A DNA stretch of 64,000 nucleotides, from the NCBI RefSeq assembly GCF_008629685.1, contig NZ_VWSF01000003.1, forward strand, positions 1 to 64,000. The letters are read 5' to 3'. This document shows, piece after piece, positions 961 to 23,790 of this stretch (within the stretch, counting starts at the first letter, position 1; each line of letters starts with the position of its first letter). A program made the translations under genes and the position numbers. The DNA is from Adhaeribacter rhizoryzae (GTDB lineage: Bacteria > Bacteroidota > Bacteroidia > Cytophagales > Hymenobacteraceae). The notes beneath the pieces are model-generated. The model was not told the origin of the DNA and did not search any database. It was given only the letters and a program-made list of their open reading frames with translations.

Positions 961-1005
961 TTACCCCCAACAGCTCCCCGCTCCATTTTGTGTCCTAATC
1001 GTAGC
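1..1005 (-). mobile_element. IS4-family insertion sequence, partial, inserted in mcrC
   Basis: The transposase reading frame runs off the left edge of the window, so only the 5' part of the element is visible. Its upstream end lies roughly between positions 1000 and 1013, inferred from where the McrC reading frame stops resembling McrC. The untranslated leader between this end and the transposase ATG (960) is only about 45 bases, normal for an IS. The exact terminal inverted repeat and target duplication cannot be fixed because the other end is outside the window. Confidence 0.75.
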
Positions 1006-1452
1006 TGTATAATGTGCAAAAATATAAATCAGCGCTTCCAGGAAGTCATCCGTTGGCAAGTCGTCGAGGGCCGTTTTAGAAACGGGAAAATTTATTCTTC
1101 GGCAATAACTAAGCCAATATAAAAGATGCTGAAAGTAGCTCTTGAAGTCGGGTTCTTTACAATCCTGAAAAATCTTCGGGTAAATTTCAATTCGGTGTCC
1201 TTCAAATTGCACCACGCCAACATAATTTCGAGCTTTAATTTTATTATGATAAAAGGTAAAGAAGCGCTGTTTGGCAGCGCTTCTGCCTTCATTTATTTTT
1301 TTGGATTCATCTTCTTTATACCAATTGCGGCTTTCCCATACGGTATTTAAATATTCCTGAAAATCCGAAATAAATTCAGGTTGCGAATAGGGCCAGGCAA
1401 GCGCTTTATTTTCAATTGCTTTCCATTCAAAGAGTCTAGTTAGAGCTTCCAT
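961..1452 (-). pseudogene. mcrC: McrC, 5-methylcytosine restriction subunit, truncated by the IS
   Basis: The first ~150 residues look like the N-terminal part of McrC, the nuclease partner that assembles on the McrB GTPase ring. The segment VGVVQFEGHRIEIYPKIF is typical of the McrC/LlaJI N-terminal domain, and FLEALIYIFAHYT is where the McrC helical region should continue. The frame then enters IS sequence and ends after about a dozen foreign residues. McrC proteins are usually about 350-450 residues and carry their PD-(D/E)XK nuclease site near the C-terminus, so this product would lack the nuclease. The ATG at 1452 overlaps the 3' end of mcrB by 17 bases, the normal coupled mcrBC arrangement. 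Any downstream part of mcrC would lie left of the window. Confidence 0.8.
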
Positions 1453-3871
1453 CCACAGAATTTATACTTACCGGAACATTGTCAAAAAGTACTTTATTAA
1501 ACCCGCTGGGTTCAGCCGTAGCTACAAATAATTGCTTCAAGGTGCTATCACTTATAGCCTGCTGAACGAGGGTAAGCATTTCCTGCTCTTTGTTATAAAA
1601 GTACTCGGCTAATAGCGGAAGTACCTTATGGTTCATAGTAAATATCAAGTCAACCTCATTATTGCCCGCATTCATAAAGTAAGAATGACCTATCAGGAAA
1701 TCTTTCCCCTTTTTCTTTAAAATCAATTGATTAAGCGCGGTAAAGAAAGATTGAATATTAGCATCCTTGATGGCAGTAACATCGGGCAATAATTCTTTAA
1801 AGACAAACCGGCGGCGTAAAGCAATATCCAGGAGGGCAATCGATTTATCTGCTGTATTCATAGTGCCAATAATATAAAGATTGGGGGGCACCGAAAAACT
1901 CTCTCCATTTGAAAGTTTAATTTCTAATTCTTGTAAGCCGCCTAATCGCTTATCTGGCTCTAATAAAGTAATTAATTCTCCGAGTACCCTGGAAATATTG
2001 GCTCGGTTTATCTCATCTATTATCAGCACGTAAGTTTGCAGCGGTTCATACTTGGCAGTGGCAGAAATGGCCTGAGCTGCTTCTTTCAGGTGTTTAACAA
2101 AAGGATGAATATAGACGCCTAATCCATTATTAAGGTAAGACCTGGTTCCTTCGTAAACATCTTTTAGGGTGCTGATAGATAGCTTATGGCTGGTACCACC
2201 ATTTTGCTTTTCAAAATCCAGATTAAATTCGTTTCGCTTGGTTATTTTAAAACTATAACCCTCTTTTCTATTCGCAATGACAACCGGATTATTGTTCTCC
2301 AGTGGCTTCAGTACCTCTTCAAATACTTCATCAAAAGAGACTTGGATTCTTTCGGGTTGTTTACTTGCCTTTAAATAGTTTTCCCGGGCTCGTTGGCAAA
2401 TTTTATAGAACACACCCTCATGTCGTTTAAAAGCCATGGAATCTCCATCCAACTTGGGTTTAATGCCTACTACAAAATCTTCGTATCCATAGCTCTGGTG
2501 GAAGGTGATAAATTCTGCCCGGCCATTCTTCAGGTAAGTATTAAATTTGTTTTGCAAAGCTCTACGTTTTTCAATTGCATCTTCACCGAAATTACTTTCA
2601 TAATCCTCAGGCTTTCCGCCTTCCAAAATACTCATCGCGTATTCTGTAGTTCTATAAGTTTTACCAGTACCAGGTGGGCCATATAAAATAAGATTTAAAG
2701 GTAATTCTACCTTCCTCATTTCCGGTTTTTCGTCTACTTCAATAAGGTCATCCGGTTCATCGTCTAAAGGTTCATCTGTGTTGAAGAAGATGGCTTGAAT
2801 GTGCTCGGGTTTAGTTACTTTATGTACTGTTGTCCAATAGCCGTTACTCGGTAGTACAAATGATTCGAAGTTTTCTTCCCATTTAACCTTTAAATTTTCG
2901 CCGTCATTGGCATTTCCCGTTACTTCCCCTCTGGCTTTAATTCTCATCACCGAATCGGTTCTGCGCTCTGTATAAACCGATTTAATAGCTATCATGCTGC
3001 CTACTGGAATAGATTTTACCTGCTCTTTAAACAGGCCGTTTGCGTTTTGCCATATACCTTCGGCCAGGAACCTTTCTGTCTGGTCCTCTTTATCCCAACT
3101 TGACCCAACTAAATAATAATTAAGCAACTCAACCTTGCTGTAAACTAATGCTGTTTTGTTGTGGATGATGTTGTAATAGCTTGAGAAAGATGAAAATTGG
3201 TACAAGTTCTTCCCATTCTCAAAATCAGTTCGTATCCGGTGTAATTGGGTTAGATTGGAGGAACCAGTCTTAAAAGTTTTCTTTGCGTTGGCTTGTTCAA
3301 ATATCTGAATAACCTCATAAATGGATTTTCCCTTTACATTAAATAAGTGTTGGTCTTGTTCCAAAGGAGCGAGGCTATCATTCTGGTAAACACCAAAGTT
3401 TTCGAAAACCAAGTCATCATTTAAAGTAATTACTCGGTCGTTATTATGGAAAGTGCTTGTATACTTTTCTAAAGCGACTGATTTAACGATATAGAATTTA
3501 ATAAAGTACTCGGCTAATGCAGCTTGCCGAAAATCCTCGTAATTTATTTCTCCCGAAAAAATATATGGTTGCTTTATCGCGCCTTTTAATTGAGCATTAA
3601 CTTCAGGGCTAATGGCGTGAATTGATAAAAAATTGTCTGACCTCAATTCAAATGGTTCTACTTCGCCAAAAACCAAAGTATCTCCTTCAACTACAGATTT
3701 TAATACTCCTAAATAAACAAACCCTTTACCTATAAAGAATCCTTTATCTCCTATTTGTAATTTGCTATAAGTTTTATTCCACCTTTCAGGTAAAGGATCG
3801 CGCCAGGTAATGGAAGCAGTTGAAGGGTCGTACTGGTCTTGAATAGTTATTTTAGCAAAGAAAGTTGGCAT
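1436..3871 (-). CDS. mcrB: McrB-type AAA+ GTPase of a McrBC restriction system
   Basis: This 811-residue protein is the motor subunit of a modification-dependent restriction system. In this family the C-terminal AAA+ domain hydrolyses GTP and the N-terminal domain reads the modified site. Visible motifs are Walker A LYGPPGTGKTYRT (about residue 394), Walker B LIIDEINRANISRV (about 614), and a sensor segment GTMNTADKSIALLD followed by ALRRRF (about 670), all typical of McrB. The ~390 residues before Walker A are long and do not look like the E. coli McrB DUF3578 reader. The segment WTTVHKVTKPEHIQ with acidic residues precedes the ATPase. The modification it recognises is unknown. It lies upstream of and overlaps mcrC, and without an intact McrC it probably does not restrict DNA. 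Confidence 0.88.
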   Translation of the reverse strand: MPTFFAKITIQDQYDPSTASITWRDPLPERWNKTYSKLQIGDKGFFIGKGFVYLGVLKSVVEGDTLVFGEVEPFELRSDNFLSIHAISPEVNAQLKGAIKQPYIFSGEINYEDFRQAALAEYFIKFYIVKSVALEKYTSTFHNNDRVITLNDDLVFENFGVYQNDSLAPLEQDQHLFNVKGKSIYEVIQIFEQANAKKTFKTGSSNLTQLHRIRTDFENGKNLYQFSSFSSYYNIIHNKTALVYSKVELLNYYLVGSSWDKEDQTERFLAEGIWQNANGLFKEQVKSIPVGSMIAIKSVYTERRTDSVMRIKARGEVTGNANDGENLKVKWEENFESFVLPSNGYWTTVHKVTKPEHIQAIFFNTDEPLDDEPDDLIEVDEKPEMRKVELPLNLILYGPPGTGKTYRTTEYAMSILEGGKPEDYESNFGEDAIEKRRALQNKFNTYLKNGRAEFITFHQSYGYEDFVVGIKPKLDGDSMAFKRHEGVFYKICQRARENYLKASKQPERIQVSFDEVFEEVLKPLENNNPVVIANRKEGYSFKITKRNEFNLDFEKQNGGTSHKLSISTLKDVYEGTRSYLNNGLGVYIHPFVKHLKEAAQAISATAKYEPLQTYVLIIDEINRANISRVLGELITLLEPDKRLGGLQELEIKLSNGESFSVPPNLYIIGTMNTADKSIALLDIALRRRFVFKELLPDVTAIKDANIQSFFTALNQLILKKKGKDFLIGHSYFMNAGNNEVDLIFTMNHKVLPLLAEYFYNKEQEMLTLVQQAISDSTLKQLFVATAEPSGFNKVLFDNVPVSINSVDGSSN

Positions 3872-4247
3872 AATGTAGGTCTATTAAAATTTTTTTAATA
3901 TACATGGAATGAAATATATTTTAATGCCTTTTTATTTATGAATTTAAATAATAGAATTTATAGCATAGATTTGGAGAAATGAGGAGTAGTTACAAACCAC
4001 TTATGGAAAAGAGCGCCAAAGGAGGGAATTAAAGTTTTTGGGATAAAAGTAATCGACTCACTGCACTCGGAAAAGGATTCAGTTAAATTTGTATGCTTAA
4101 TAGAGATAGCCGCTAAACGTTCTTCCCTGGGTCGTAGAGCACCCGCCATAACAAACTATCAGACGTTGTCTAGTGAGCAATTTTATTTTAATCCGGTACT
4201 ATTATCACTTTCATACACAATTAGGAACAAAGAGACACAAAGAATAA
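3872..4247. promoter_or_regulatory. Divergent intergenic region between mcrB and the helicase operon
   Basis: These 376 AT-rich bases separate mcrB (leftward) from the helicase operon (rightward), so both promoters should lie here. I could not place a convincing Bacteroidota promoter (TTTG / TAnnTTTG). A 63-codon leftward frame at 3958-4149 has no recognisable features and is not called as a gene. The helicase start is preceded by AAAGA-type purines rather than a classical Shine-Dalgarno sequence, usual for this phylum. Confidence 0.4.
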
Positions 4248-7200
4248 ATGTCAACTAAATTTTTTACAAATCAAGATAGTAACAGCTTATTGAAGAAATT
4301 CGAAGGTGTCTTTTCTAATATTGAGAGCATTAAACATTTTGATGCCTTGGTTGGCTACTTTAGAACTTCGGGGTACTTTAAAGTAAGAGCATTCCTGGAT
4401 AAAATTCCCAAAATCAGAATTTTAGTTGGAATAAATGTAGACCAACTCATTAAAAAATACCACGATAAAGGCCAGTTATATTTAGATAATCCGGATGAAA
4501 CGAAAGATAGTCTTTTAGAAGAACTTATTAAGAATATACAGGAGGCCGATTATGATGAGGTTACTGAAAAAGGAATTATTCAATTTATAAAAGACTTAAC
4601 CGAAGGAAAAATTGAATTAAGGGCCCATCCGAAAAAGAAAATTCATGCTAAAGTTTACATCTTTCGGCCAGTTCCATTTAATGAATATGCTCCATGTGAG
4701 GTAATTACCGGCTCATCTAACCTTACAGATGCCGGTTTAGGAGCAAACCCCGAGTCTAATTACGAATTCAATGTAAGTTTAAGGGACTACGAAGATGTAA
4801 AATTTGCGACCGAAGAGTTTGAGAGGTTATGGTTAGAATCAGTTCCTATACTACATGCAGAAGCTCAGAGGATTAAGGAAAATACCTATCTTAAAGATGA
4901 CTTTACTCCTTTTGAGCTCTATATAAAAATGCTTATTGAGTATTTTGGGAAAAGAGTAGATTACGACCCGTATAATATTGATTTATTATTGCCTAATAAG
5001 TTCATGCGCTTGAAATATCAGTCGGACGCAGCTAACCAGGGTTTTGCTATTATGATGAAACACAATGGTTTCATTTTGGCTGACGTAGTGGGTTTAGGTA
5101 AAACCATAATCGCCTGTATGGTGATTAAAAAGTTTATTTATGAAAACGGTACCCATTCTAAAATTTTGATGGTAGTGCCACCGGCATTACAAGCTAACTG
5201 GCGAAGAACAACAGAGGATTTCCAAATCAGAAATCACTTCGAGTTTATTAATATTGGCAGCTTGAACCGGGTCTTAGATGAAAATGATTACTCCTATTCC
5301 AATGCCGATAAATTTGACATGGTGGTGATAGATGAATCTCATAAGTTCAGGAATGATTATACCGATATGTATTTGGCATTGCAAGAAGTCTGCAAAAAGC
5401 CTCGCTCTAGGCCAGCCGAGAACGGGGATACCAGAAAAAAAGTGATCCTTATTTCTGCTACCCCACTCAACAACCGGCCACAAGATATAGAAAACCAGCT
5501 ATATTTATTTCAGGATAGAAGGAACAGCACTTTAGAGAATATTAAAAATCTACAGGATTATTTTAAGCCGCTTAATGAGCAATATAAAAAATTAGCCGCA
5601 GAGAAAACCCTAAACATTAGAAAGCTAAAATCTCTTTTCCAGAAATTGAGAGATGATGTAGTGGAACCCCTTGTAATTAGAAGAACTAGAACGGATATTG
5701 AAAACAACAAGGAGTATTTGGAGGATATGGCAAATCAAAAAATTATCTTCCCCAAGGTAGATGACCCTATTTCCCTGTATTATCAATTAGACGGTAAACT
5801 AGGCAAGCTTTTCTATGAAACGGTTTCCCTTATTACAGGCTTAGACGAAAACGGGCAAGAGTCTGATGGTCTGGGGTACTACCGGTACAGAGCTATTGAA
5901 TTCTTGACAAAAGAAGAAGATAAAAAAACATACGGTAATGTAAAATCAATTTCAGGCCGGTTAAGTGCCATTATGAAAACGCTTTTAGTTAAACGATTGG
6001 AAAGTAGCTTTTTTGCCTTTTCCCAATCTATAAAGCGGTTTCAGAAAGCTATTAACAACATGATTAGCATGTTTGAAGACGAACGAGTGTTTGTAGCACC
6101 AGCCTTGGATATTAACAAGCTGCTGGAAGAAGGATTGAGTTATGACCAGATTGAAGCAAAAATCAATGAGAAGGGTGGGAATAACAAAGAATTTAAACCG
6201 GGTGATTTTGATAAAAAATTTATTGGTTTCCTAAAAACAGACAAAGAAAAGATTGATGATTTAGTCGCCAGATGGGGCCGGGTAAAAGAAGACCCTAAGC
6301 TGGAAGAATTTTCAGAGCAGATTAAGAAAGAATTTTTTAAGAAGAAAAAAAACCATAGCGGGAAACTAGTTATTTTTTCAGAATCTAAAGAAACGGCCGA
6401 ACAATTATCCAAACACCTGTCAGAATCTTCGGAACATAGAATTCTAACGGTAAGCGCCGACAACCGAAGGGCAGTCGAAAATATTTTACTGCAAAACTTC
6501 GACGCAAACTTGGAAGAAGAAAAATGGCGAAATGATTACGATATAGTTATTACTACCGAAGTTTTGGCCGAAGGGATAAACCTGCATAGAAGTAATTTAA
6601 TTGTAAACTACGATGTTCCTTGGAATGCCACGCGTTTAATGCAGCGCATCGGGCGGGTTAACCGTATTGGTTCCCGGGCCGAGCAGATTTATGTCTATAA
6701 TTTTTACCCGTCAGCCCACGGCGACGAACAAATTAAATTAGTAAATAATGCACTCCGGAAATTGCAGGCATTCCATTCTGCTTTCGGCGAAGACAATAAA
6801 ATTTTCTCTTTACTCGAGGAGAAAGGCGAAGGAGCATTATTTGGGAATAAAATTCAGAAAGAAGAAAGCGAAATTTTAAAATATCTGAACGAACTCCGGG
6901 AATTTAAAAAGAAGTCCCCAAAGCGTTTTAATGAAATCAGCAAAATACCCAATAAAGCCAGGTGCGGCCGGCAAACCCAAGCAGGCCAGCAATTAACGCT
7001 ACTGGAAGCCGATTCTGGTATTATAAATTACCCGTTGCATAACACATCAGTTACTTATTTGAAAAGCGATAATCATCCGGGAATTTTTTGTTTAATTACA
7101 CCAGAACTGAACATTATTGAAATGAATTTTCTGCAAGCGATAAAAATTTACAAAGCAGATGAACAAGAAAAGGCCGTTGCCTTACACAAACAACACCATG

Positions 7201-7607
7201 AACAAACCGGAAAAGGGCTTGACTATTTTAAATCCGAAAAAAACCAGGCAAATATTCAAACTATTTCCCGGAAGAATTTAAGTCCGGCCGAAAACAAGGC
7301 AATAACAAACATTAATGCTATTTTAAAATTTGCACCTACCGAGCAGAAGAAAATGGCATTACAGCGGACTTTAGACTTAATTAAAAAGGGAACTTATGGT
7401 TCCAAGGGATTGCCAAAATCAATTAATGATTTTTTTACGATAAATGTAAAGCTGTTAAAAGAACCTACCGCCTTTATAGAACTCCTATTTATTGATGTGC
7501 TGGACCGTTACGACCTTTCTTCCAATGCCGACGAAGGATCAAAGGAAAATTTACGGCAAGGTGGCATTATTAATCCTAAAATTGTATTAACCCAAAGCTT
7601 TGTGTAA
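4248..7607 (+). CDS. PLD-domain SNF2-family helicase, probable defence protein
   Basis: This 1119-residue protein combines an N-terminal phospholipase-D-like domain with a superfamily 2 SNF2-type ATPase. The PLD part (about residues 10-220) shows KIHAKVYIF with the H and K of an HKD motif near residue 132 and the companion GSSNLTDAGLG near 154. Helicase motifs follow: ADVVGLGKTII (Walker A, about 280), VVIDESHKF (DESH, about 361), LISATPLNNRP (about 403), LVIFSESKETAEQL and the arginine-finger motif QRIGRVNRIGS (about 800). Proteins of this layout translocate on double-stranded DNA and are common in phage-defence loci; the DISARM protein DrmD is an SNF2-like relative by general class. It heads an operon with the KilA-N protein two bases downstream. 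All motifs look intact, so it may still be active. Its exact role here is inferred from context. Confidence 0.85.
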   Translation: MSTKFFTNQDSNSLLKKFEGVFSNIESIKHFDALVGYFRTSGYFKVRAFLDKIPKIRILVGINVDQLIKKYHDKGQLYLDNPDETKDSLLEELIKNIQEADYDEVTEKGIIQFIKDLTEGKIELRAHPKKKIHAKVYIFRPVPFNEYAPCEVITGSSNLTDAGLGANPESNYEFNVSLRDYEDVKFATEEFERLWLESVPILHAEAQRIKENTYLKDDFTPFELYIKMLIEYFGKRVDYDPYNIDLLLPNKFMRLKYQSDAANQGFAIMMKHNGFILADVVGLGKTIIACMVIKKFIYENGTHSKILMVVPPALQANWRRTTEDFQIRNHFEFINIGSLNRVLDENDYSYSNADKFDMVVIDESHKFRNDYTDMYLALQEVCKKPRSRPAENGDTRKKVILISATPLNNRPQDIENQLYLFQDRRNSTLENIKNLQDYFKPLNEQYKKLAAEKTLNIRKLKSLFQKLRDDVVEPLVIRRTRTDIENNKEYLEDMANQKIIFPKVDDPISLYYQLDGKLGKLFYETVSLITGLDENGQESDGLGYYRYRAIEFLTKEEDKKTYGNVKSISGRLSAIMKTLLVKRLESSFFAFSQSIKRFQKAINNMISMFEDERVFVAPALDINKLLEEGLSYDQIEAKINEKGGNNKEFKPGDFDKKFIGFLKTDKEKIDDLVARWGRVKEDPKLEEFSEQIKKEFFKKKKNHSGKLVIFSESKETAEQLSKHLSESSEHRILTVSADNRRAVENILLQNFDANLEEEKWRNDYDIVITTEVLAEGINLHRSNLIVNYDVPWNATRLMQRIGRVNRIGSRAEQIYVYNFYPSAHGDEQIKLVNNALRKLQAFHSAFGEDNKIFSLLEEKGEGALFGNKIQKEESEILKYLNELREFKKKSPKRFNEISKIPNKARCGRQTQAGQQLTLLEADSGIINYPLHNTSVTYLKSDNHPGIFCLITPELNIIEMNFLQAIKIYKADEQEKAVALHKQHHEQTGKGLDYFKSEKNQANIQTISRKNLSPAENKAITNINAILKFAPTEQKKMALQRTLDLIKKGTYGSKGLPKSINDFFTINVKLLKEPTAFIELLFIDVLDRYDLSSNADEGSKENLRQGGIINPKIVLTQSFV

Positions 7608-7609
7608 AA

Positions 7610-8443
7610 ATGTCCAAAGGCAAAAAAGCTGCTATTGAGGTAAAAGGCACTTCTATAACTGTTATTACCCACGGCAAAGAAGACTTTATATCATTGAGCG
7701 ATATGGTGAAAAGCTTTGATGGCGGCGCTGCTTTAATTGAGCAATGGCTTCGGAACAAAAATACCGTAGAGTTTTTAGGCATCTGGGAGCAGATTAATAA
7801 CCCGGATTTTAATTCCCCCGAATTCGAGGGAATTAAAAATGAAGCCGGTACTAACCGTTTTTACCTTTCTGCTAAAAAATGGATTGAAACTACCATGGCA
7901 AAAGGTTTAATTGCCAGTGCTGGCAGGTACGGCGGCACCTATGCCCACCGGGACATTGCTTTTGAATTTGGCAGCTGGCTCAGCCCAGAGTTTAAACTCT
8001 ACCTTATCAAAGAATTTCAGCGGCTGAAAGACGATGAGAATAGCCGCCTATCCTTAAATTGGGATTTGCACCGTACGTTAGCCAAAGTAAACTACCGCAT
8101 CCATACCGATTCTATTAAAGAAAATATCATTCCGCCCACCATTACAAAAGAACAAGCCAGGCTAATTTATGCCAATGAAGCCGACCTGCTAAATGTAGCT
8201 ATATTTGGTAAAACAGCCGCAGAATGGCGACAGGAAAACCCGGACTTAAAAGGCAACATCAGGGACTACAGCACCATTGAGCAATTATTGGTACTGTCTA
8301 ACTTGGAAAGTTTAAATGCAGAATTTATCCGAATGAACCTGCCCCCGGCTGAGCGACTTAAAAAACTTAATGAGATTGCTATTACCCAATTAAAATCTTT
8401 ACTGCCAACGCCGCAAATAAAAAAATTACCAAAGCAAAAATAA
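7610..8443 (+). CDS. KilA-N domain DNA-binding protein in the defence operon
   Basis: This 277-residue protein has a KilA-N-type domain in its first ~140 residues. The order of conserved pieces is ISLSDMVKSF, IEQWLRNKNTVEFLGIWE, the aromatic FYLSAKKWIE, then GRYGGTYAHRDIAFEFGSWL and FKLYLIKEFQRL. KilA-N is a DNA-binding fold found in phage and large DNA-virus proteins and, in bacteria, beside restriction-modification genes. The C-terminal half (residues 150-277) is helical with no motif I recognise. The gene starts two bases after the helicase stop, and its TAA overlaps the next ATG (TAATG), so the three are probably translationally coupled. A sequence-reading or regulatory role inside the system is inference. 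Confidence 0.8.
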   Translation: MSKGKKAAIEVKGTSITVITHGKEDFISLSDMVKSFDGGAALIEQWLRNKNTVEFLGIWEQINNPDFNSPEFEGIKNEAGTNRFYLSAKKWIETTMAKGLIASAGRYGGTYAHRDIAFEFGSWLSPEFKLYLIKEFQRLKDDENSRLSLNWDLHRTLAKVNYRIHTDSIKENIIPPTITKEQARLIYANEADLLNVAIFGKTAAEWRQENPDLKGNIRDYSTIEQLLVLSNLESLNAEFIRMNLPPAERLKKLNEIAITQLKSLLPTPQIKKLPKQK

Positions 8444-11400
8444 TGGCCGCTAACCGCATTCAATTACAAACCGCCTTAAATAAACCGTACGATAGAATTC
8501 TTTTTGGGCAAGAAATATTAAGACCTGTATTTGGCGCCAGTCTCTCCTTAAATACTTCTTTAATCCCGGCTTCGGTCCAGCCTAATAAATCGGAGCAGGC
8601 TGTAATCAATACAGTTTCCATTTATGGTAGCATTACTTTAGAAGATAACACCGAAATAACCTGTTACGAAATAACGTTGCAACCACAGGTTAGGCTGGAG
8701 CAGAATAAAGTTGCTATTCAGCGATATGTGAGAAAGCTGCTTACAGCCGGGCAGGCGGCTTTGGTAAATTTTATTGTACCTAAAAATAAAGATTTTTGGC
8801 GATTAACGCTGGTAGCTAAAGACAGTGAGCTAACCGAACAAGGCATAAAGGAAAAAACAACCCATGCCAAACGTTACACCTATATAATAGAAACGGGGGC
8901 TAACAAAACGAATAAAACCCTGGCCGAGCGGCTGGAAAAATTATCTATTTCTGACCTCTACTTCAAAGATATTACCGAAGCTTTTTCGGTTGAAAAATTA
9001 AGCAAAGCCTTTTTTGATGAATATACCTTGCACTACCAGAAGTTTTATGAGTATCTGCAAGAATCAAATTATCGAAAATCAGTTTTTAAGGTTTCCTTAC
9101 CTACCGATGCTACTAAAGAAGACAAGGATAAAGCGTTCAAACAAATCCGGGACTTTACAAAAAAACTATTAGGCCGGATTGTATTCTTATATTTTGTCCA
9201 AAAGAAATGCTGGTTAGGGGCAAGTAATATAAATTACCAAGATGGCAAGCAAGATTTTATAAAGTACTTATTTAAGCAATCTGGGGGAAACGAAACCTTT
9301 TACAGCAATTGGCTTTCAGTTTTGTTTTTTGAAACCTTAAATGAAGAACGTCCAAACGAAAATTTTACCATGCCAGATGGCTCAAAAGTGAAAGTGCCTT
9401 TTTTAAATGGTGGCTTATTTGACAGAGATGACTATGACGAATAATTATTAACATTTAAACCTAAGTTATTCCATAACCCTGATTTTGAGGAAACCATATT
9501 AACTAAAAAGAACAAGGAATACAGCCGGGGCTTCCTAGACTTTTTGGATGCCTTTAACTTTACCGTTTATGAAGACAGTCCCGACGACCACACAGTGGCC
9601 GTTGATCCCGAGATGTTAGGACATATTTTTGAAAACTTGTTGGAAGACAACAAAGACAAGGGTGCTTTTTATACGCCCAAAGAAATTGTGCACTACATGT
9701 GTCAGGAGAGCTTAATCGAGTTCCTTGCTACCCATTGCTTGAATTACAATTCTAATGATTTAGGAAAATTTCCCTCTTCTGGAAATTTAAAAGCGTTTCT
9801 TTCTGATTTGGTAAAACTTAAAATAGTTAACCAAGCACATTTAAATTCTGAGCAAGAAAATGAGGAATGGTTAAAAATGCTATTAAGTTTTATTGACGAA
9901 TTATTAACTACTGTAAAAATATGTGACCCAGCTATTGGGAGCGGAGCATTCCCAATGGGTTTATTGCAGGAAATATTTACGCTTAAAGAAGTAATTACTT
10001 ACGAAACCAAAGCTTCTTGGAACCCTGCCCAGGTTAAAGAAAACATTATACAAAATAGCATTTATGGAGTAGATATTGAGAAAGGCGCTGTAGATATTGC
10101 CCGGCTGCGTTTCTGGCTTAGTTTAGTTGTAAACGAAGATAAACCCAAAGCCCTGCCCAATTTAGATTATAAAATTGTGGTAGGTGATAGCTTGGTAAGT
10201 AAGTTTGAGGACAAGATTATTGAAGTAGATTGGGAAGTAAAGGAAGGCACCCAAACCACTATTTTTGGGAACGAAAACGTATTGAAACAGCAGGAATTAT
10301 TACAGAAAATTTCTGATAAACAATCTAAATTTTTTCACCCTAAAAGTAAGAACAAGCCATCGTTACATGCCGAAATAAGAGATTTGAAAATTGATATTTT
10401 GATTAACCAATTAGAATTGATGATTAAAACTAACGGCATTGAAAAACAACCATTATCTTCTAATAAAAAGTTTAAAGACCTAACTATATTATATAACCGA
10501 ACTCAAGATTGGAAAGAAACTATTAGTAAACTACGAAACTTAAGAAAAGATAAAGATAAAATTTTTAAACATTTCGATTGGAAATTAAATTTTCCAGAAG
10601 TATTAAATCCAAATTTGGTATTAGAAGAAAAACAAAGAGGTTTTGATATTCTAATTGGAAACCCGCCTTATGTTGACTCAGAAACAATGATGAAGTCATA
10701 TCCTTTAATCAGGGATGTTATCAATAGAAAGTTCAAGGCTGCAAAAGGAAATTGGGATTTATACATTCCTTTTCATGAATTAGCAATTAATCTAATGAGA
10801 GTAAATGGAGTAAAAGCTTTTATATCTCCAAATAAGTGGCTTTCAATAGCTTATGCTACTGAATTCAGGAGGTTGTACAAAAATAAATGTTATAAAATAT
10901 GTAATTGTAATGGTGTAAAAGTTTTTGAAGCAGGTGTAACCCCAGTCATCTCTTTTTTTAAGTGTAGTACAATATCCCAAATTTATATTGATAGAGTAAA
11001 CCAAAAATTTGAGTTCAGTACTAAAAATATAGTTGAATCAGAGCTTATTGATCAGAACTCATTAGGTCTATTATTATCTAATTCATCTTCTATTTTGCTC
11101 AAAATAAAAAGGATTAAAACCAACTTTAAAGATTATATTATTTGTGAAAATCCTTTTTCAACAAGTGAAGCTTATCAACTCTGTGATATTTTAATTGATA
11201 GCAACAATGAGAAAGAAGAATTCTTTAAGTTAATTAATACAGGAACTATTGACCCTTACATATCCCTATGGGGTACTAAACAAACTACTTATTTAAAATC
11301 CAGGTATCTACACCCAATTGCCAAATTAAATGATCTAAATAAACTATTTCCAAGGCGAGTTCAGCAAATCAAATCAAGAAAACTAATAATAACAGGAATG

Positions 11401-11982
11401 AGGTATTTAGAATGTTTTTTTGATATAGATGGAGAATATATAGCAGGCAAATCAACGCTAATTATTAAAGAAGTAAAAGAAGACAATTATCTTCTATTTT
11501 GTGCATTACTTAATTCTAAATTAATATCATTTTTTATAAAAGAATCATATAGTTCGCTTGGGATTGATGGAGGAGTAAATTTTACGAAATCAATTATTGA
11601 AGATGTTCCTTTGCCTACAGTTGATTCAACATTAATTGAAAAATTTTCTTGTTTTGTAGAATATATTATATTCCTAAAAAAAATAAATTTAATTCTTATA
11701 AGTGAACAACTAATGCCTGCTTATTTCCAACAAATAATAGATGGAATGGTATACGAACTGTATTTTCCTGATTTACTCAAAAATCATAATCGTGAAATTA
11801 TCTCACATTTAGGTGAATTACCTAGAATTACAGATAATATGAATGATGAGAAGAAGTTGAGCATTATTAAAACCGTATTTAACCGCTTAAATGACCGAGA
11901 ACACCAAATAAGGGTAAACATGTTTTATATTAATTCTATTCCTGAAATTGCTATTATTGAAGGCAAGCATGAGAATAACTGA
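8443..11982 (+). pseudogene. Eco57I-like DNA methyltransferase/restriction enzyme split by one in-frame stop
   Basis: Two frames (8443-9444 and 9544-11982) are in the same phase, separated by a TAA at 9442-9444. The bases after the stop translate without interruption as LLTFKPKLFHNPDFEETI and onward into FLDAFNFTVYEDSPDD, matching the family around GLFDRDDYDE. This is therefore one gene of about 1180 codons with a nonsense codon near residue 334. Methyltransferase motif I is CDPAIGSGAFPMG (about residue 494), motif II is IYGVDIEKGAVDIARLRF, and motif IV is ILIGNPPYVD (about 738), typical of N6-adenine enzymes of the Eco57I/type IIG-like group. The last ~350 residues are probably target recognition. 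An internal restart at 9544 could yield the methyltransferase half. Read-through or a sequencing error is also possible. Confidence 0.85.
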
Positions 11983-13528
11983 TATTCGGATAAAAAACTA
12001 CCGAGCCTTTTATGGCGAGCATCATTTTGAATTGGATAGAGATGGTAAAAACCTAATGCTGTACGGCGAGAACGGCAGCGGTAAGAGTTCTTTATTCACA
12101 GCCTTAAAAGATTTTTTTCTTTCGTCTGATGAAAAGTTAAAAGAAGTAGAAGAAAATATTTTTGTTCCTGCTTCACAAAAAAACACGGCAAGTATTAAAA
12201 TTACCCTTCGCGAAAGTGCTGAATCTTCTAAGAATATTGATTTTGAATTAAACTCAATCCAAAAAGAAATTATCAGTACGGATAAAGTTGTCATATCAGC
12301 AGCAAATAAAATTAAGGGCTTCTTCGATTATCGTAATTTACTAAAAACACACATCAATCACGAGCAGCAAGTAGACCTATTTAAAATAATAGTGCATGAA
12401 ATTCTTTATCATTCAGTTAATCGTTTTTCCAATAAAGAAATTGGTAAAGAGTGGGATGCCATTTATGAGGACACTCATGATAAAAAGCAAACAACTAGAT
12501 TAAAGGAGGCAACAAAGAATTACCTCAAAGATAAATTTAATCCTGGTCTTATCGAAATATTGCAATCTATAGAACAAGACACCAATACCTTTCTCAAATA
12601 TTTTGGAATTAACGTTAACATAAAACTTGATTTTGATAAAGTAGAATATTTAGGAAGGAGAGGTTTATCAGGTAATAAAACTAGCTTAAACATAGATTTT
12701 TATAAACAGCATATCCCTAAACATCAGAATTTCTTAAACGAAGCCAGATTAACTGCTTTAGCCATAAGCTTATATTTAGCATCAATAAAAATAAACCCGA
12801 CTAAAGGGGTTTTAAAAATTTTAGTACTCGACGATTTACTTATTGGTTTGGACATGAGTAACCGTTTGCCCTTACTTGATATTATTAAAGATCATTTTGT
12901 AGAAGTTAAAACTGATGACCGGTTTCAGATTATTATGACTACTTATGACAAAGTTTGGTATGAATTAGTGAAAAGCTACTTTGGACCCGAGCAATGGAAA
13001 TTTGTTGAGGTATATTCGAGATGCTTGCACGATGAAGATTTTGAAATCCCAATAATTAAGCATGATAACGGCTATCTTCCCCTTGCTAAAAAGCATCTGG
13101 CGGAGAAGGATTTCAAAGCATCTGCGGTATATATCCGGACAGAGTTTGAACGGTTAGTGAAAACAATTTGTGATAAACAACGCATTCCGGTATCTTATCG
13201 CAAAAATCAAAAAGAAGTAACGAGCGATGATTTCTGGAATGCTATTGAACTACAAACAGATTTAGACCCAGATTTAATAAAACAAATCAAAATTCACCGA
13301 GGCGTCGTTATGAACCCTTTCAGCCATTATGACTTAGAAAAGCCAGAATTTGAAAAAGAATTAAGAGATACAATAACATCAGTTGAAAGACTCAGTAAAG
13401 TACCTATAAAAAACTTAAAGAAAAGGACCTATAGTGATTTGTTGAAAGAAATATCAAGACTTGAGCTGCAACTAAAAAAACCAATAATTAGTAAAATAAT
13501 TAGCGCTTTAATTGACAAAAGTAAATAG
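11969..13528 (+). CDS. AAA/ABC-type (SMC-RecF-like) ATPase closing the defence operon
   Basis: Starting at the ATG at 11969, this is a 519-residue protein opening with ITDIRIKNYRAFYGEHHF, the classic N-terminus of RecF/SMC-like ATPases. Walker A is GENGSGKSSLFTAL (about residues 33-46). A Walker B with D-loop-like continuation, LKILVLDDLLIGLDMSNR, appears near 285. The insertion between the two is short for an SMC protein and shows no long coiled coil. The C-terminal third (from about residue 380) contains helical segments such as KHLAEKDFKASAVYIRTEF, seen in several bacterial defence ATPases. The gene overlaps the methyltransferase 3' end by 14 bases. A frame-compatible TTG lies further upstream at 11948, but the ATG gives the proper family start. 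The role may be sensing or signalling; this is inferred from context. Confidence 0.8.
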   Translation: MRITDIRIKNYRAFYGEHHFELDRDGKNLMLYGENGSGKSSLFTALKDFFLSSDEKLKEVEENIFVPASQKNTASIKITLRESAESSKNIDFELNSIQKEIISTDKVVISAANKIKGFFDYRNLLKTHINHEQQVDLFKIIVHEILYHSVNRFSNKEIGKEWDAIYEDTHDKKQTTRLKEATKNYLKDKFNPGLIEILQSIEQDTNTFLKYFGINVNIKLDFDKVEYLGRRGLSGNKTSLNIDFYKQHIPKHQNFLNEARLTALAISLYLASIKINPTKGVLKILVLDDLLIGLDMSNRLPLLDIIKDHFVEVKTDDRFQIIMTTYDKVWYELVKSYFGPEQWKFVEVYSRCLHDEDFEIPIIKHDNGYLPLAKKHLAEKDFKASAVYIRTEFERLVKTICDKQRIPVSYRKNQKEVTSDDFWNAIELQTDLDPDLIKQIKIHRGVVMNPFSHYDLEKPEFEKELRDTITSVERLSKVPIKNLKKRTYSDLLKEISRLELQLKKPIISKIISALIDKSK

Positions 13529-13666: not shown

Positions 13667-13718
13667 GGCTGTAGGTATGGGTAACTCGATAGAGTTATCC
13701 ATACCTACAGCCTTTTTT
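13667..13718 (+). terminator. Strong intrinsic terminator after the defence operon
   Basis: Arms of 21 bases, 13667-13687 and 13692-13712, pair with a single G-T wobble around a GATA tetraloop and are followed by six T residues. The hairpin lies 139 bases past the ATPase stop. It is long for a terminator and would also work as a barrier against read-through into the decayed region on its right. Confidence 0.85.
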
Positions 13719-19538: not shown

Positions 19539-19667
19539 TAATATTATTGGCTAATATATAGAACATGTTAATAAATGCTAATATATGTGGATATTTATTT
19601 CTTATATATTTAGCTTATCCATATTAATTATGTGTATTTGCTAAAATTATTAGCTTTATGGATAACT

Positions 19668-20834
19668 ATGCTGCTAACAGAAAACCGGACCATTGCCCAC
19701 CTGGACCTGGATACTTTTTTTATTTCGGTAGAGCGCTTGCGTAATTCTCAGCTTGTTGGTAAACCCGTTATGGTGGGTGGTTCTTCGGACCGGGGGGTAG
19801 TGGCCAGTTGCAGTTATGAAACGCGGTATTTTGGGGTCCATGCGGGTATGCCCATGCGCCTGGCCCGGCAGCTCTGCCCCGAAGCTTTGGTGTTGCGGGG
19901 GGATATGGAAGCGTATAGTAAATATTCCCAGGACGTGACCCAGGTGATTGCGGCCCACGCACCCGTGTACGAAAAAGCTTCGATTGACGAGCATTACCTG
20001 GATGTAAGCGGCATGGACCGCTTCTACGGTACCTGGCAGTGGACGAAAGAATTACGCCAGAACATCATCAAAGAAACCGGCTTGCCCGTTTCCTTTGGTT
20101 TATCGGTGAACAAAACCGTTTCCAAGATTGCCACCGGACAAGCGAAGCCCAACGGGGAAATACAGGTTCAACCGGAACAGGTAAAGCCATTTCTGGCCCC
20201 CTTATCTATCCGCAAGATACCGGGGGTCGGGCAGAAGAATTACCAACTCCTTCGCAACATGGGTATTCCGACCATTGAGGTGCTGACCATGATTCCGGTA
20301 GAGCTAATGCAGAAAGTACTGGGCCAGGAAGGGGTGCATATCTGGGAAAAAGCCAACGGCATTGACCGCACCCCGGTTATACCCTATGCCGAGCAAAAAA
20401 CCATCAGTACCGAGCAGACCTTTCACACCGACACCACGGATATGGTGAAGCTCAACAACCTGCTCGTTTCCATGACCGAGAACCTGGCTTTTGAGCTGCG
20501 GAAGCAAGGCAAACTCACGGGCTGCATTACGGTTAAAATCCGTTACGCGAACTTCGATACCCACACCCAGCAATTATCTATTCCGTACAACGCCGCCGAC
20601 CATATTTTAATCCGCAAAGCCAAAGAATTGTTCGGCAAACTCTATAACCGCCGGCTGCTCGTGCGCTTACTGGGGGTGCGCCTGAGTAACCTGGTGCAAG
20701 GATTCCAGCAGATAGATTTATTTGAAGATACGGCCGAAATGGCCAACCTCTACCAGGCCATGGATAAAATTCGCTGCCGCTACGGCGAGGATGCCGTGAA
20801 GAGGGCGGTGGGTTTAAAATCAGGTTTAGCTTAA
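19668..20834 (+). CDS. dinB: Y-family translesion DNA polymerase (DinB/Pol IV type)
   Basis: Starting at the ATG at 19668, this is a 388-residue Y-family polymerase that copies damaged templates with low fidelity. Catalytic acidic residues are present: IAHLDLDTFFISVE near residue 10 and ASIDEHYLDVSGMD near residue 104. The steric-gate and substrate region VVASCSYETRYFGVHAGMPM is typical. The helix-hairpin-helix segment IRKIPGVGQKNYQLL and a little-finger domain follow. Because the carboxylates are intact it should be catalytic, unlike ImuB proteins. The extra 12 residues possible from 19632 are not conserved, so the later ATG is preferred. The dnaE-like gene starts four bases after its stop, so they form one operon. 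Confidence 0.9.
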   Translation: MLLTENRTIAHLDLDTFFISVERLRNSQLVGKPVMVGGSSDRGVVASCSYETRYFGVHAGMPMRLARQLCPEALVLRGDMEAYSKYSQDVTQVIAAHAPVYEKASIDEHYLDVSGMDRFYGTWQWTKELRQNIIKETGLPVSFGLSVNKTVSKIATGQAKPNGEIQVQPEQVKPFLAPLSIRKIPGVGQKNYQLLRNMGIPTIEVLTMIPVELMQKVLGQEGVHIWEKANGIDRTPVIPYAEQKTISTEQTFHTDTTDMVKLNNLLVSMTENLAFELRKQGKLTGCITVKIRYANFDTHTQQLSIPYNAADHILIRKAKELFGKLYNRRLLVRLLGVRLSNLVQGFQQIDLFEDTAEMANLYQAMDKIRCRYGEDAVKRAVGLKSGLA

Positions 20835-20838
20835 CCTT

Positions 20839-23790
20839 ATGCTGGCCTTTGTGCACTCCTACTATAGTTTGCGCTATGGCACGTTGTCGCCGGAAGAACT
20901 GGCGCTGGAAGCCAAAACCAAAGGCTACCAAGCCTTAGCCTTAACTGATATTAATTATACTTCCGGCGTATTTCCTTTCATCAAGGCTTGCCTGGCGCAA
21001 GGAATTCAGCCCTTGGTGGGCATTGAGTTCCGGCGCGACAACCAGTGGCTGTACACGGGTATTGCCCAAAACCAGCAGGGTTTTCGGGAGCTGAACCGTT
21101 TTTTAAGTACTTACCTGCTCCAGCACCAACCCTTACCTGATGTTCCGCCGGAATTTAACCACGCCTACATTATCTATCCTTTTGCCCGCTATAACCCCAA
21201 CCATAATAAAAACCCGCTGCGGGCGAACGAATATGTAGCCGTAGCACCGGCCGATGTTAACAAGCTGCATTTTTCGGATATAAGAAAACACCCCGAGAAG
21301 CTATTAATGTGGGGGCTTTTTACCTGTAAAAACCAGACGGGCTTGGAGTTGCACCAGCATTTACGGGCCATTGATAATAACATCCTGTTAAGCCAACTCA
21401 ACCCGGCGCATGGTCTTTCGGATAATAATTGTTTTTTGCCTAGTTCTGAATTACTAATTAAATACCAGCAATTACCGGCGCTTATCCGCAATGCCGAAAA
21501 ACTTGCTACGGCGGCAGCGTTCAGCTTTGATTTTACCAGCCGCAAAAACAAATTTACTTTCACCGGCACCGCCTCCGACGACAAAGAGCTACTGGAAAAG
21601 CTGGCCTGGGACGGGCTGCGTAACCGCTACGGGGCGAGCCACCAGGAAGCGAAACAACGGGTCGCGCACGAGCTGGCCATTATCCACAAACTGGGCTTTA
21701 GCTCTTATTTTCTCATTACCTGGGATGTTATCAGGTATTCTTTATCGCGCAACTTTTACCACGTGGGCCGGGGCAGCGGGGCCAACAGCGTGGTAGCTTA
21801 TTGCCTGCGCATTACCGATGTAGACCCGATACAACTGGACTTGTACTTTGAGCGGTTCCTGAACCCCAAGCGCACGAGCCCGCCCGATTTTGATATTGAT
21901 TACAGTTGGCTGGAACGCGACGAAGTGCTCGATTATATTTTCAAGCGCTACCAAAAAGAACATACGGCCTTGCTGGGGGCCATGAGCACCTTTCAGCCAA
22001 GTTCTATCCTGCGCGAACTGGGCAAAGTTTATGGGCTGCCTAAAGCCGAATTAGATGCGCTGGTCGAACAGCCCGCCGCGCCCGGTAATGCCAATCACCT
22101 GACCGGACAAATCTTCCGGTACGGGAAGCTGCTCACCGATTTTCCCAATCTGCGCAGCATCCACGCCGGCGGAGTGTTGATTTCAGAGGAGCCGATTACC
22201 AATTACACCGCCCTGGATATGCCCCCCAAAGGCATGCCTACTACCCAATGGGATATGTACACCGCAGAAGATATTGGTTTCGAGAAGCTGGATATATTGA
22301 GCCAGCGGGGCATTGGCCACATCAAGGAATGCGTGGATTTAGTGTGGCAGAACCAGCAAATTAAAATAGATGCCCACGATATAGAGCGGTTTAAGCAGGA
22401 CGAAAAAGTCAAGGCGCAACTTAAAGCCGGCAGTACCATTGGCTGCTTTTACATCGAGAGCCCGGCCATGCGGGGCTTGCTCAAGAAATTGCGGTGTGAT
22501 AATTATTTAAGCCTGGTCGCGGCCAGTTCGATTATCCGGCCCGGCGTTGCCCAGTCGGGCATGATGCGGACCTACATCCAGCGGTTTCACGCGCCAGATA
22601 AAATCCAGTACCTGCACCCGGTCATGGAAGAGCAGCTGAAAGAAACTTTCGGGGTCATGGTGTACCAGGAAGATGTCATCAAAGTAGCGCACCACTTTGC
22701 CGGCCTGGATTTAGCCGATGCCGATGTGCTGCGGCGGGGCATGAGCGGTAAGTACCGGTCCAAGACCGAGTTCCAGAAACTGGTGGATAAATTCTTTAGT
22801 AATTGCCAGGCCAAAGGTTACCCGGAAGCGCTAACCAAGGAAGTCTGGAGGCAGATAGAAAGTTTCGCGGGTTATTCTTTTTCCAAAGCCCACTCGGCCA
22901 GCTTTGCCGTGGAAAGTTACCAGAGTTTGTACCTGAAAACTTATTACCCGCTGGAGTTTATGACAGCGGTAATCAATAACTTCGGCGGTTTTTATAAAAC
23001 CTGGGTGTACGTGCAGCAGGCGCAGAAAGCGGGGGCCGTTATTCATTTGCCCTGCGTGAACCATAGCTTTCTGACTACCGCTATCTTTGGCCACGATATG
23101 TACCTGGGTTTGATTCACATCCAACACCTGGAGCAGAAACTTGCCCAAACGATGGTAGCCGCGCAGCAGCAAAATGGCCCGTATACCAGCCTGGAAAATT
23201 TTATTCAGCGGACCGGTATTACCTTAGAAGCGCTCTTAATATTAATCCGGGTACAGGCTTTACGCTTTACCGGCCAGTCTAAAAAAGCCCTGCTCTGGGA
23301 AGCCCATTTACTGCTGGGGTATCAGGTAAACCACCGGCATACTAACCTGTTGTTCCAGGCCCCGGCTAAAACGTTTACGCTGCCGGCGCTGACCCATACA
23401 TTGATTGAAGATGCTTACGACGAAATAGAGCTGCTGGGCTTTCCCGTTAGCTGTACTTACTTTGATTTACTGCAAACGAAGTTTCGCGGCGAGGTGCTGG
23501 CTACTAACCTGTTGCCCTATGTAGGTCAAAAAGTACGGATGCTGGGAATATTAGTAACCACCAAATACGTGCGCACAGTAAAAGGCGATATCATGCAGTT
23601 CGGCACCTTTCTGGATGTGGACGGATTTTTTTTTGATACGGTGCATTTCCCGCAATCATTGAAGCTGTGGCCCTTTAAAGGTTTTGGGGTGTATTTGCTC
23701 TACGGGAAAGTCGTTGAGGAATTTGGCTTCCCCAGCATTGAGGTGGAGAAGCTGGCGAAGATGCCTTTTCAGAAAGACCCCAGGTACTGA
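20839..23790 (+). CDS. DnaE-type DNA polymerase III alpha subunit, likely error-prone (DnaE2-like)
   Basis: A 983-residue C-family polymerase, shorter than replicative DnaE (about 1150 or more). It opens with a PHP domain: FVHSYYSLRYGTLSPEEL, then GYQALALTDINYTSG and GIQPLVGIEF. The polymerase core contains HVGRGSGANSVVAYCLRITD (written across residues ~305-325) and SPPDFDIDYSW with two catalytic aspartates near residue 349. GVMVYQEDVIKVAHHFAG and YSFSKAHSASFAVESYQSLY are further palm/finger blocks. An OB-fold-like C-terminal segment follows, without the tau-binding tail of replicative DnaE. Its tight linkage to a Y-family polymerase and an SRAP gene matches the mutagenesis cassettes (imuB-dnaE2-like) of other bacteria. 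The chromosomal replicative dnaE should lie elsewhere. Confidence 0.88.
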   Translation: MLAFVHSYYSLRYGTLSPEELALEAKTKGYQALALTDINYTSGVFPFIKACLAQGIQPLVGIEFRRDNQWLYTGIAQNQQGFRELNRFLSTYLLQHQPLPDVPPEFNHAYIIYPFARYNPNHNKNPLRANEYVAVAPADVNKLHFSDIRKHPEKLLMWGLFTCKNQTGLELHQHLRAIDNNILLSQLNPAHGLSDNNCFLPSSELLIKYQQLPALIRNAEKLATAAAFSFDFTSRKNKFTFTGTASDDKELLEKLAWDGLRNRYGASHQEAKQRVAHELAIIHKLGFSSYFLITWDVIRYSLSRNFYHVGRGSGANSVVAYCLRITDVDPIQLDLYFERFLNPKRTSPPDFDIDYSWLERDEVLDYIFKRYQKEHTALLGAMSTFQPSSILRELGKVYGLPKAELDALVEQPAAPGNANHLTGQIFRYGKLLTDFPNLRSIHAGGVLISEEPITNYTALDMPPKGMPTTQWDMYTAEDIGFEKLDILSQRGIGHIKECVDLVWQNQQIKIDAHDIERFKQDEKVKAQLKAGSTIGCFYIESPAMRGLLKKLRCDNYLSLVAASSIIRPGVAQSGMMRTYIQRFHAPDKIQYLHPVMEEQLKETFGVMVYQEDVIKVAHHFAGLDLADADVLRRGMSGKYRSKTEFQKLVDKFFSNCQAKGYPEALTKEVWRQIESFAGYSFSKAHSASFAVESYQSLYLKTYYPLEFMTAVINNFGGFYKTWVYVQQAQKAGAVIHLPCVNHSFLTTAIFGHDMYLGLIHIQHLEQKLAQTMVAAQQQNGPYTSLENFIQRTGITLEALLILIRVQALRFTGQSKKALLWEAHLLLGYQVNHRHTNLLFQAPAKTFTLPALTHTLIEDAYDEIELLGFPVSCTYFDLLQTKFRGEVLATNLLPYVGQKVRMLGILVTTKYVRTVKGDIMQFGTFLDVDGFFFDTVHFPQSLKLWPFKGFGVYLLYGKVVEEFGFPSIEVEKLAKMPFQKDPRY

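Follow-up and report, generated by a model that had tools for sequence, protein, structure and literature searches.

A conserved PLD-SNF2 helicase and Eco57I-like methyltransferase pair with an exchangeable gene slot in a putative restriction-modification-like operon of Adhaeribacter rhizoryzae

Positions 1-64000 of contig NZ_VWSF01000003.1 (assembly GCF_008629685.1; hereafter the window) from the 6.5-Mb genome of Adhaeribacter rhizoryzae contain a unidirectional operon at 4248-13528, which a preliminary description had proposed as an undescribed four-gene defence system. All of its genes are on the forward strand. The first (4248-7607) encodes a helicase-nuclease of 1119 aa, in which Pfam recognizes PLDc_2 (phospholipase D, PLD), SNF2 and Helicase_C domains. 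Its frame is open, and the HxK motif and the Walker A lysine are encoded at 4644-4652 and 5100-5102, respectively. After a 2-base gap follows the gene of a 277-aa KilA-N domain protein (7610-8443; Pfam KilA-N, 77 bits), which is covered almost entirely by the PADLOC profile PDC-S22 (434 bits, E 3.6e-131, profile positions 3-275 of 281). An overlapping TAATG junction (8441-8445) leads into an Eco57I-like methyltransferase gene, which a premature in-frame TAA at 9442-9444 divides into a 333-codon N-terminal piece with a match to the N-terminus of type IIG enzymes (8443-9444) and an 845-codon stretch in the same frame (9445-11982). The latter holds the Eco57I catalytic domain (Pfam, 110.9 bits), and its first listed start is a TTG at 9544. 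The last gene overlaps by 14 bases (11969-11982) and encodes an SMC/Rad50-like ABC ATPase of 519 aa with a helical C-terminal domain (11969-13528; Pfam SMC_N and AAA_23). Downstream lies a terminator-like stem-loop whose 20-pair stem is followed by a T tail (13667-13712); as the terminator scan overall gave 10 sites against 8.1 expected, only this stem stands out. The four functions with their domains, the common direction, the junctions and the terminator were thus described correctly, except that the split methyltransferase makes the operon one of five open reading frames (ORFs) rather than of four intact genes.

To define which of these genes belong together, we used loci that had been collected by helicase similarity alone. 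The best 80 of at least 571 relatives were kept, and the sample therefore represents the near end of the helicase family. A family methyltransferase lies downstream of the helicase, on the same strand and within 3.5 kb, in 74 of the 80 loci, and the gap is 30 nt or less in 50 of these 74 pairs. When at least 1500 nt of downstream sequence was required, the methyltransferase was present in 70 of 74 loci. Other ORFs of at least 300 aa served as controls. Upstream of the helicases, 6 of 210 such ORFs were methyltransferases, a figure biased low because the helicase itself fills most of that range; none of 116 were in the regions around KilA-N genes (L071-L090), and 1 of 87 beyond the core methyltransferase. 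The loci span 11 named phyla, with 53 of the 80 in Bacteroidota and two unassigned. Among 27 loci sampled from IMG/VR, the helicase ORF was found in 22 and the downstream methyltransferase in 14, and among 395 genomes sampled from the phylum, relatives of both genes were frequently adjacent. Closer to home the distribution is patchy: at E ≤ 1e-100, the system occurs in 16 of 197 searched genomes of relatives. These 16 count the window's own genome, and none of the seven genomes listed from the same genus is among them. All four genes were together in a single locus of the 80 (L097), with the sequences of L107 and L156 ending too early to judge. The conserved unit, in which a motor-nuclease gene is linked to a methyltransferase gene as expected of restriction-modification (RM), is hence the PLD-SNF2 helicase with the Eco57I-like methyltransferase and not the four-gene set. 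The earlier proposal had staked its novelty on the four homologues recurring together; these rarely do so, and it is the two-gene core that recurs.

Across 48 aligned helicases, the window's included, H133, K135, N158, E173, K285, D362, E363 and H365 are invariant, a set that includes the Walker A and DEAH residues. An AlphaFold2 model of the helicase (mean predicted local distance difference test score, pLDDT, 80.6) retrieved RapA first and SauUSI (PDB 7clg) third in Foldseek. The nearest PADLOC profile to the helicase is C3a139 (HKD plus Snf2, 128 bits), and the methyltransferase is nearest to type IIG enzymes (176 bits). An ExK-like motif was sought as the sign of an active type IIG nuclease in the methyltransferase N-terminus, and this candidate was rejected, as the aligned relatives do not consistently have a lysine at that position.

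Two closely related operons, L091 from Flavobacterium caeni and L097 from a Cytophagaceae metagenome-assembled genome, show where the system varies. Their helicases are 92-100% identical in every 100-aa window. The methyltransferases share 82-100% identity over residues 1-600, 39-62% over 601-780 and 22-32% over 781-1080, and return to 69% in the last window; at the DNA level, alignable sequence resumes at 93.6% identity after a divergent stretch of about 1.5 kb within the methyltransferase gene. The window's methyltransferase behaves likewise against L097, with 66-80% identity over residues 1-300, a mixed 33-98% over 361-600, 10-25% over 781-1080 and 67% at the end. Its DNA ceases to align to L091 and L097 at about 10676-10689 and does so again from about 11704-11707, which places the hypervariable part, resembling a target-recognition domain, approximately at 10690-11703. 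Five further relatives match residues 781-1080 at 6-37% and the end at 74% (one), about 40% (three) or 12% (L099). An exchangeable specificity-like region is thus found inside operons that are about 92% identical around it. By analogy to RM enzymes, target choice most likely resides in the hypervariable C-terminal half of the methyltransferase. As specificity seems to vary in the methyltransferase alone, the helicase probably does not recognize the site on its own, and the simplest reading is that it would borrow target recognition from the methyltransferase. The suggestion that KilA-N chooses the target is accordingly disfavoured.

The same pair of operons documents an exchange between the core genes. 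An insert of 862 bp carrying KilA-N sits between helicase stop and methyltransferase start in L097 only, and the flanking DNA of L091 and L097 is 91.6% identical through the helicase end and 92.0% from the methyltransferase start. Across 70 loci, the slot between helicase and methyltransferase is without a gene of at least 100 aa in 54 and filled in 16. It holds KilA-N in three (L092, L097 and L107), YhcG/DUF1016 in four (L110, L118, L126 and L138), Schlafen AlbA_2/HATPase-like genes in two (L144 and L168) and other genes in seven, among which Pfam recognizes RhuM (L096 and L123), AlbA_2 (L133) and Uma2 (L106). In L156, KilA-N also follows the helicase in a locus that stops before a methyltransferase could appear, and in L160 a KilA-N fragment of 181 aa precedes the helicase. 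The YhcG slot gene of L032 matches the PADLOC profile PDC-S02.

KilA-N itself is not confined to these operons. Counting short matches, relatives were present in 64 of 395 genomes sampled from the phylum. In 11 of the 20 KilA-N regions L071-L090, a type I, type III or helicase-core gene stands beside it (L071, L073-L080, L085 and L087). We built a tree of 30 KilA-N proteins, comprising the 20 of L071-L090, five of L002-L030, those of L092, L097, L107 and L156, and the window's; fragments below 225 aa were omitted, and the rest of L002-L030 was removed by a crude duplicate and motif filter. On this tree, the copy of L097 groups with that of L079 from a type III operon and the copy of L073 with that of L080 from a type I operon. 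The seven copies located in helicase slots require six changes, compared to a mean of 6.4 after shuffling, and 237 of 500 shuffles gave a value as low. The slot label is thus clustered no more than by chance, and a single clade of the slot copies was rejected by the approximately unbiased test (p-AU 5e-59). KilA-N is an optional mobile accessory cassette of RM operons; any function it may have there would be a matter of speculation. Phages carry relatives of the window's protein as well, at 44-53% identity: Staphylococcus phage EW (NC_007056.1:28337-29155) and Streptococcus satellite phages. Separately, L073 contains at 5935-13494 a diverged operon of helicase, KilA-N and methyltransferase, in which the helicase and methyltransferase are 27% and 25% identical and KilA-N is 63% identical to the window's proteins.

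The ABC ATPase is likewise an optional partner, with a relative after the methyltransferase in 24 of 70 loci. Its C-terminal domain carries an RxxxE (R390, E394) to SH (S452, H453) signature, encoded at 13136-13327. In 31 ATPases (30 of them distinct), R390, E394, N449 and H453 are kept in all and S452 in 28. The signature resembles that of the PrrC/RloC tRNases, which are also ABC ATPases linked to RM: for RloC, the published motif is Arg-X3-Glu-X36-52-His, with Ser often preceding the His (PMC2610378), and ABC-HEPN proteins of the PrrC/RloC kind are described as RM-linked (PMC3710099). The N, R, E, S and H residues are also conserved in a comparison set of 12 RloC-like proteins. The operon ATPases differ in a longer E-to-H spacing (58-115 in a subset of 17, the longest perhaps being a matter of alignment), in the missing CxxC hook of the window's protein and in the C-terminal profile comparison: hhalign aligned the RxxxE in register, but over 12 columns and at E 0.12, far from significance, so that this comparison gives no support for homology to RloC. 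A fail-safe RNase is therefore a speculative lead and not a result. The AlphaFold2 model of the ATPase (mean pLDDT 75.4) matched cohesin/Rad50 heads in Foldseek. The PADLOC mad3 profile matches 17 of 17 ATPases; in the window's protein, the match is limited to residues 2-132. The window's ATPase has no CxC motif, and a CxC near the C-terminus occurs in one peptide among the 31 (L043 = L154, same protein). In one locus, a second, different Eco57I-type methyltransferase follows the ATPase after about 126 bases (L042:11548-14490).

Upstream of the helicase, 15 of 135 loci (131 distinct helicases) have a helix-turn-helix (HTH) gene that belongs to a single family (65-118 aa, in most cases 92-99) and nearly always lies at a distance of 30 nt or less, and nine further loci have one of two other HTH types. 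Its location at the usual place of controller genes suggests that it may be an RM controller. The gene is present in the close relatives L091, L092, L093 and L097; in the window, a search of 3872-4400 gave no convincing match to it (smallest E among the matches listed, 0.046). The operon is flanked on the reverse strand by mcrB (1436-3871; Pfam AAA_5; NCBIfam McrB 133 bits, below the cut-off of 637). The preliminary description had placed the operon divergent from mcrBC, which is right for mcrB; of mcrC, a 163-aa remnant is left (961-1452, reverse strand; Pfam McrBC, profile positions 1-74 of 318), in which homology to the McrC of four relatives ends between 1018 and 1111 (tblastn). Adjoining it, an open-ended 320-aa ORF runs off the end of the contig (1-960, reverse strand). 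We take it to be insertion sequence-like and to encode a putative transposase; its Tnp_DNA_bind match is weak (E 0.00089, below cut-off). As this ORF at the contig start adjoins the mcrC remnant, McrBC of the window is probably non-functional. Elsewhere, a McrB relative lies within three genes after the methyltransferase in 5 of 70 loci (L114, L116, L128, L132 and L159), and McrBC may accompany the core repeatedly. Further along the window (19632-23790), two adjoining ORFs resemble polymerase genes, one of the Y family and the other for a DnaE-like subunit.

Among named systems, no single one in PADLOC-DB 2.0 covers the operon at the level of profiles. Its earlier classification as a defence-type operon built around helicase and methylase is supported. 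DISARM class 1 (DrmD, DrmMI, DrmA, DrmB, DrmC) shares the SNF2 helicase and the adenine methyltransferase, and its DrmC has PLD chemistry, but in our operon the PLD domain is fused to the helicase. SauUSI, a PLD-helicase type IV enzyme that acts on modified DNA, also combines PLD and a superfamily 2 (SF2) motor in one chain; unlike SauUSI, our family has a methyltransferase gene next in line in 74 of 80 loci. The PADLOC scores of the helicase (DrmD 118 bits, HmaA 94, BrxHI 85) and of the methyltransferase (DrmMI 90) would fit a divergent or reduced member of DISARM class 1, of Hma/BREX-related type 2 (BR-2) or of BREX. BR-2 is close in idea: RM-like logic is described for Hma and BR-2 (PMC8565338, PMC12839542), and BR-2 helicases are HKD-SWI2/SNF2 fusions beside an N6-methyltransferase (PMC12839542). 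However, the curated NCBIfam models are missed by a wide margin (DrmD 145 bits versus a cut-off of 610, BREX-1 PglX 63 versus 500). Moreover, the genome has no match to MZB (PF09369, the DrmB marker in the MZB/DUF1998 region), in line with the earlier statement that drmB is absent, and none to DUF499 (PF04465); its sole PglZ-domain match lies about 109 kb beyond the operon. DUF499, DUF3780 and MZB are also not among the families listed as matched by at least two of 124 operon neighbours (ATPases omitted). Membership in DISARM class 1, Hma/BR and BREX was rejected on these features, and the operon differs from Hma/BR-2 further in its Eco57I/type IIG-like methyltransferase and optional SMC/Rad50-like ATPase. 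We consider such a membership improbable. In the CxC or PbeABCD systems, HKD and an SF2 helicase similarly occur together with an ABC ATPase and in some cases with methylases, but the methylases described are cytosine enzymes (PMC10853773); membership was rejected here as the window's ATPase has no CxC hook, and the operon's ATPase occurs in 24 of 70 loci only. The slot genes tested match PDC-S22 and PDC-S02, the single-gene PADLOC candidates for KilA-N and YhcG, but in our family they are exchangeable cassettes of an RM-like operon. In a literature search mostly outside subscription journals, the combination of helicase, Eco57I methyltransferase and KilA-N was not found under a name, which is weak evidence, and the pair is not named as a system in the available parts of PMC12839542, PMC10853773, PMC8565338, PMC2292703, PMC3710099, PMC2610378, PMC12813430, PMC11090510 and PMC12458937. 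The best reading is an ATP-dependent, RM-like operon that is related to DISARM-1, Hma/BR-2 and Pbe and fails a tested feature of each. Of the novelty claimed for the locus, the four-gene set does not survive; the two-gene core and its slot remain.

Alternatively, the locus could be an island in decay, made up of mobile defence genes that are unrelated and have no joint function. The broken methyltransferase, the mcrC remnant, the failure to find an HTH gene and the patchy occurrence among relatives agree with this reading, which suits the copy in the window better than it does the family. In the family, core pairs recur in 74 of 80 loci from 11 named phyla, most of them with gaps of no more than 30 nt, and helicases and methyltransferases are long and open elsewhere; the methyltransferase is a single ORF of at least 950 aa in 61 of 70 counted relatives, the other nine being shorter, some by contig ends. 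We consider the decaying island very unlikely. That four fixed genes form a defence system, with KilA-N choosing the DNA target, is scarcely credible, since the ordered set of L097 and the junctions, which look co-transcribed, are set against a full set in 1 of 80 loci, slot KilA-N in 3 of 70 and the ATPase in 24 of 70, a near-identical operon without KilA-N (L091), a polyphyletic KilA-N that also resides in type I/III RM operons, and a hypervariability located in the methyltransferase.

We therefore favour, with reasonable confidence, an ATP-dependent, RM-like system with a two-gene core, a modular slot and specificity borne by the methyltransferase, which is partly broken in this genome. Here, the adenine methyltransferase would recognize its site through the hypervariable C-terminal half and mark self DNA. 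The PLD-SNF2 protein would translocate on DNA and cut where the mark is absent, taking its specificity from the methyltransferase within a complex, on the model of type I/III RM or BREX/DISARM, and the system would thereby act in defence. The slot between the two genes would take up KilA-N as an accessory cassette here and YhcG (DUF1016), RhuM or Schlafen-like genes elsewhere. The ATPase, an optional partner, might act as a second line and could be a PrrC/RloC-like RNase freed upon failure of restriction. With a nonsense codon in its methyltransferase, the system probably does not function in this genome, barring a sequencing error at the stop or pieces that retain activity.

Several observations weigh against this interpretation. 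A recognized methyltransferase is missing in 6 of 80 loci, four of which had room for one (L130, L150, L155 and L165). The HTH gene is missing from most of the 135 loci, and no RM gene was recognized beside KilA-N in 9 of 20 loci. The Foldseek alignments of the helicase are long but loose (TM-score by query length 0.19-0.27 for ranks 1-4). For the ATPase, the spacing exceeds the 36-52 residues of RloC, the profile comparison is insignificant, and the 50 of 515 Foldseek matches listed are of the ATPase-head type or retron-ATPases. The intact helicase frame beside the broken methyltransferase counts against it in part: an open helicase would fit restriction that depends on the complex, but a stop that arose recently or a sequencing error would explain it just as well. 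A bolder version appears to us rather doubtful at present, though worth stating. It would see a distinct, widespread and unnamed class of ATP-dependent RM, in which a specificity-free PLD-SNF2 motor is paired with an Eco57I-type methyltransferase whose sole target-recognition region serves both marking and cutting; the junction slot would trade RM-linked cassettes with type I/III RM operons, as observed for KilA-N and by analogy for YhcG, RhuM and Schlafen-like genes, and in about one third of loci an ABC ATPase with a PrrC/RloC-like triad would act as fail-safe RNase.

The interest of the locus rests with the two-gene core and the cassette slot. The near-identical filled and empty sites of L097 and L091 make the contribution of the KilA-N cassette testable in an operon that is otherwise well matched. 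From the independent exchange of the methyltransferase C-terminal half, a change of the recognized motif is predicted. If the core restricts phage, it would represent a two-gene, ATP-dependent RM layout in 11 named phyla that no single PADLOC-DB 2.0 system covers. If the cassette pool is common to this core and to type I/III RM operons, it would help to explain why such genes recur beside methylases.

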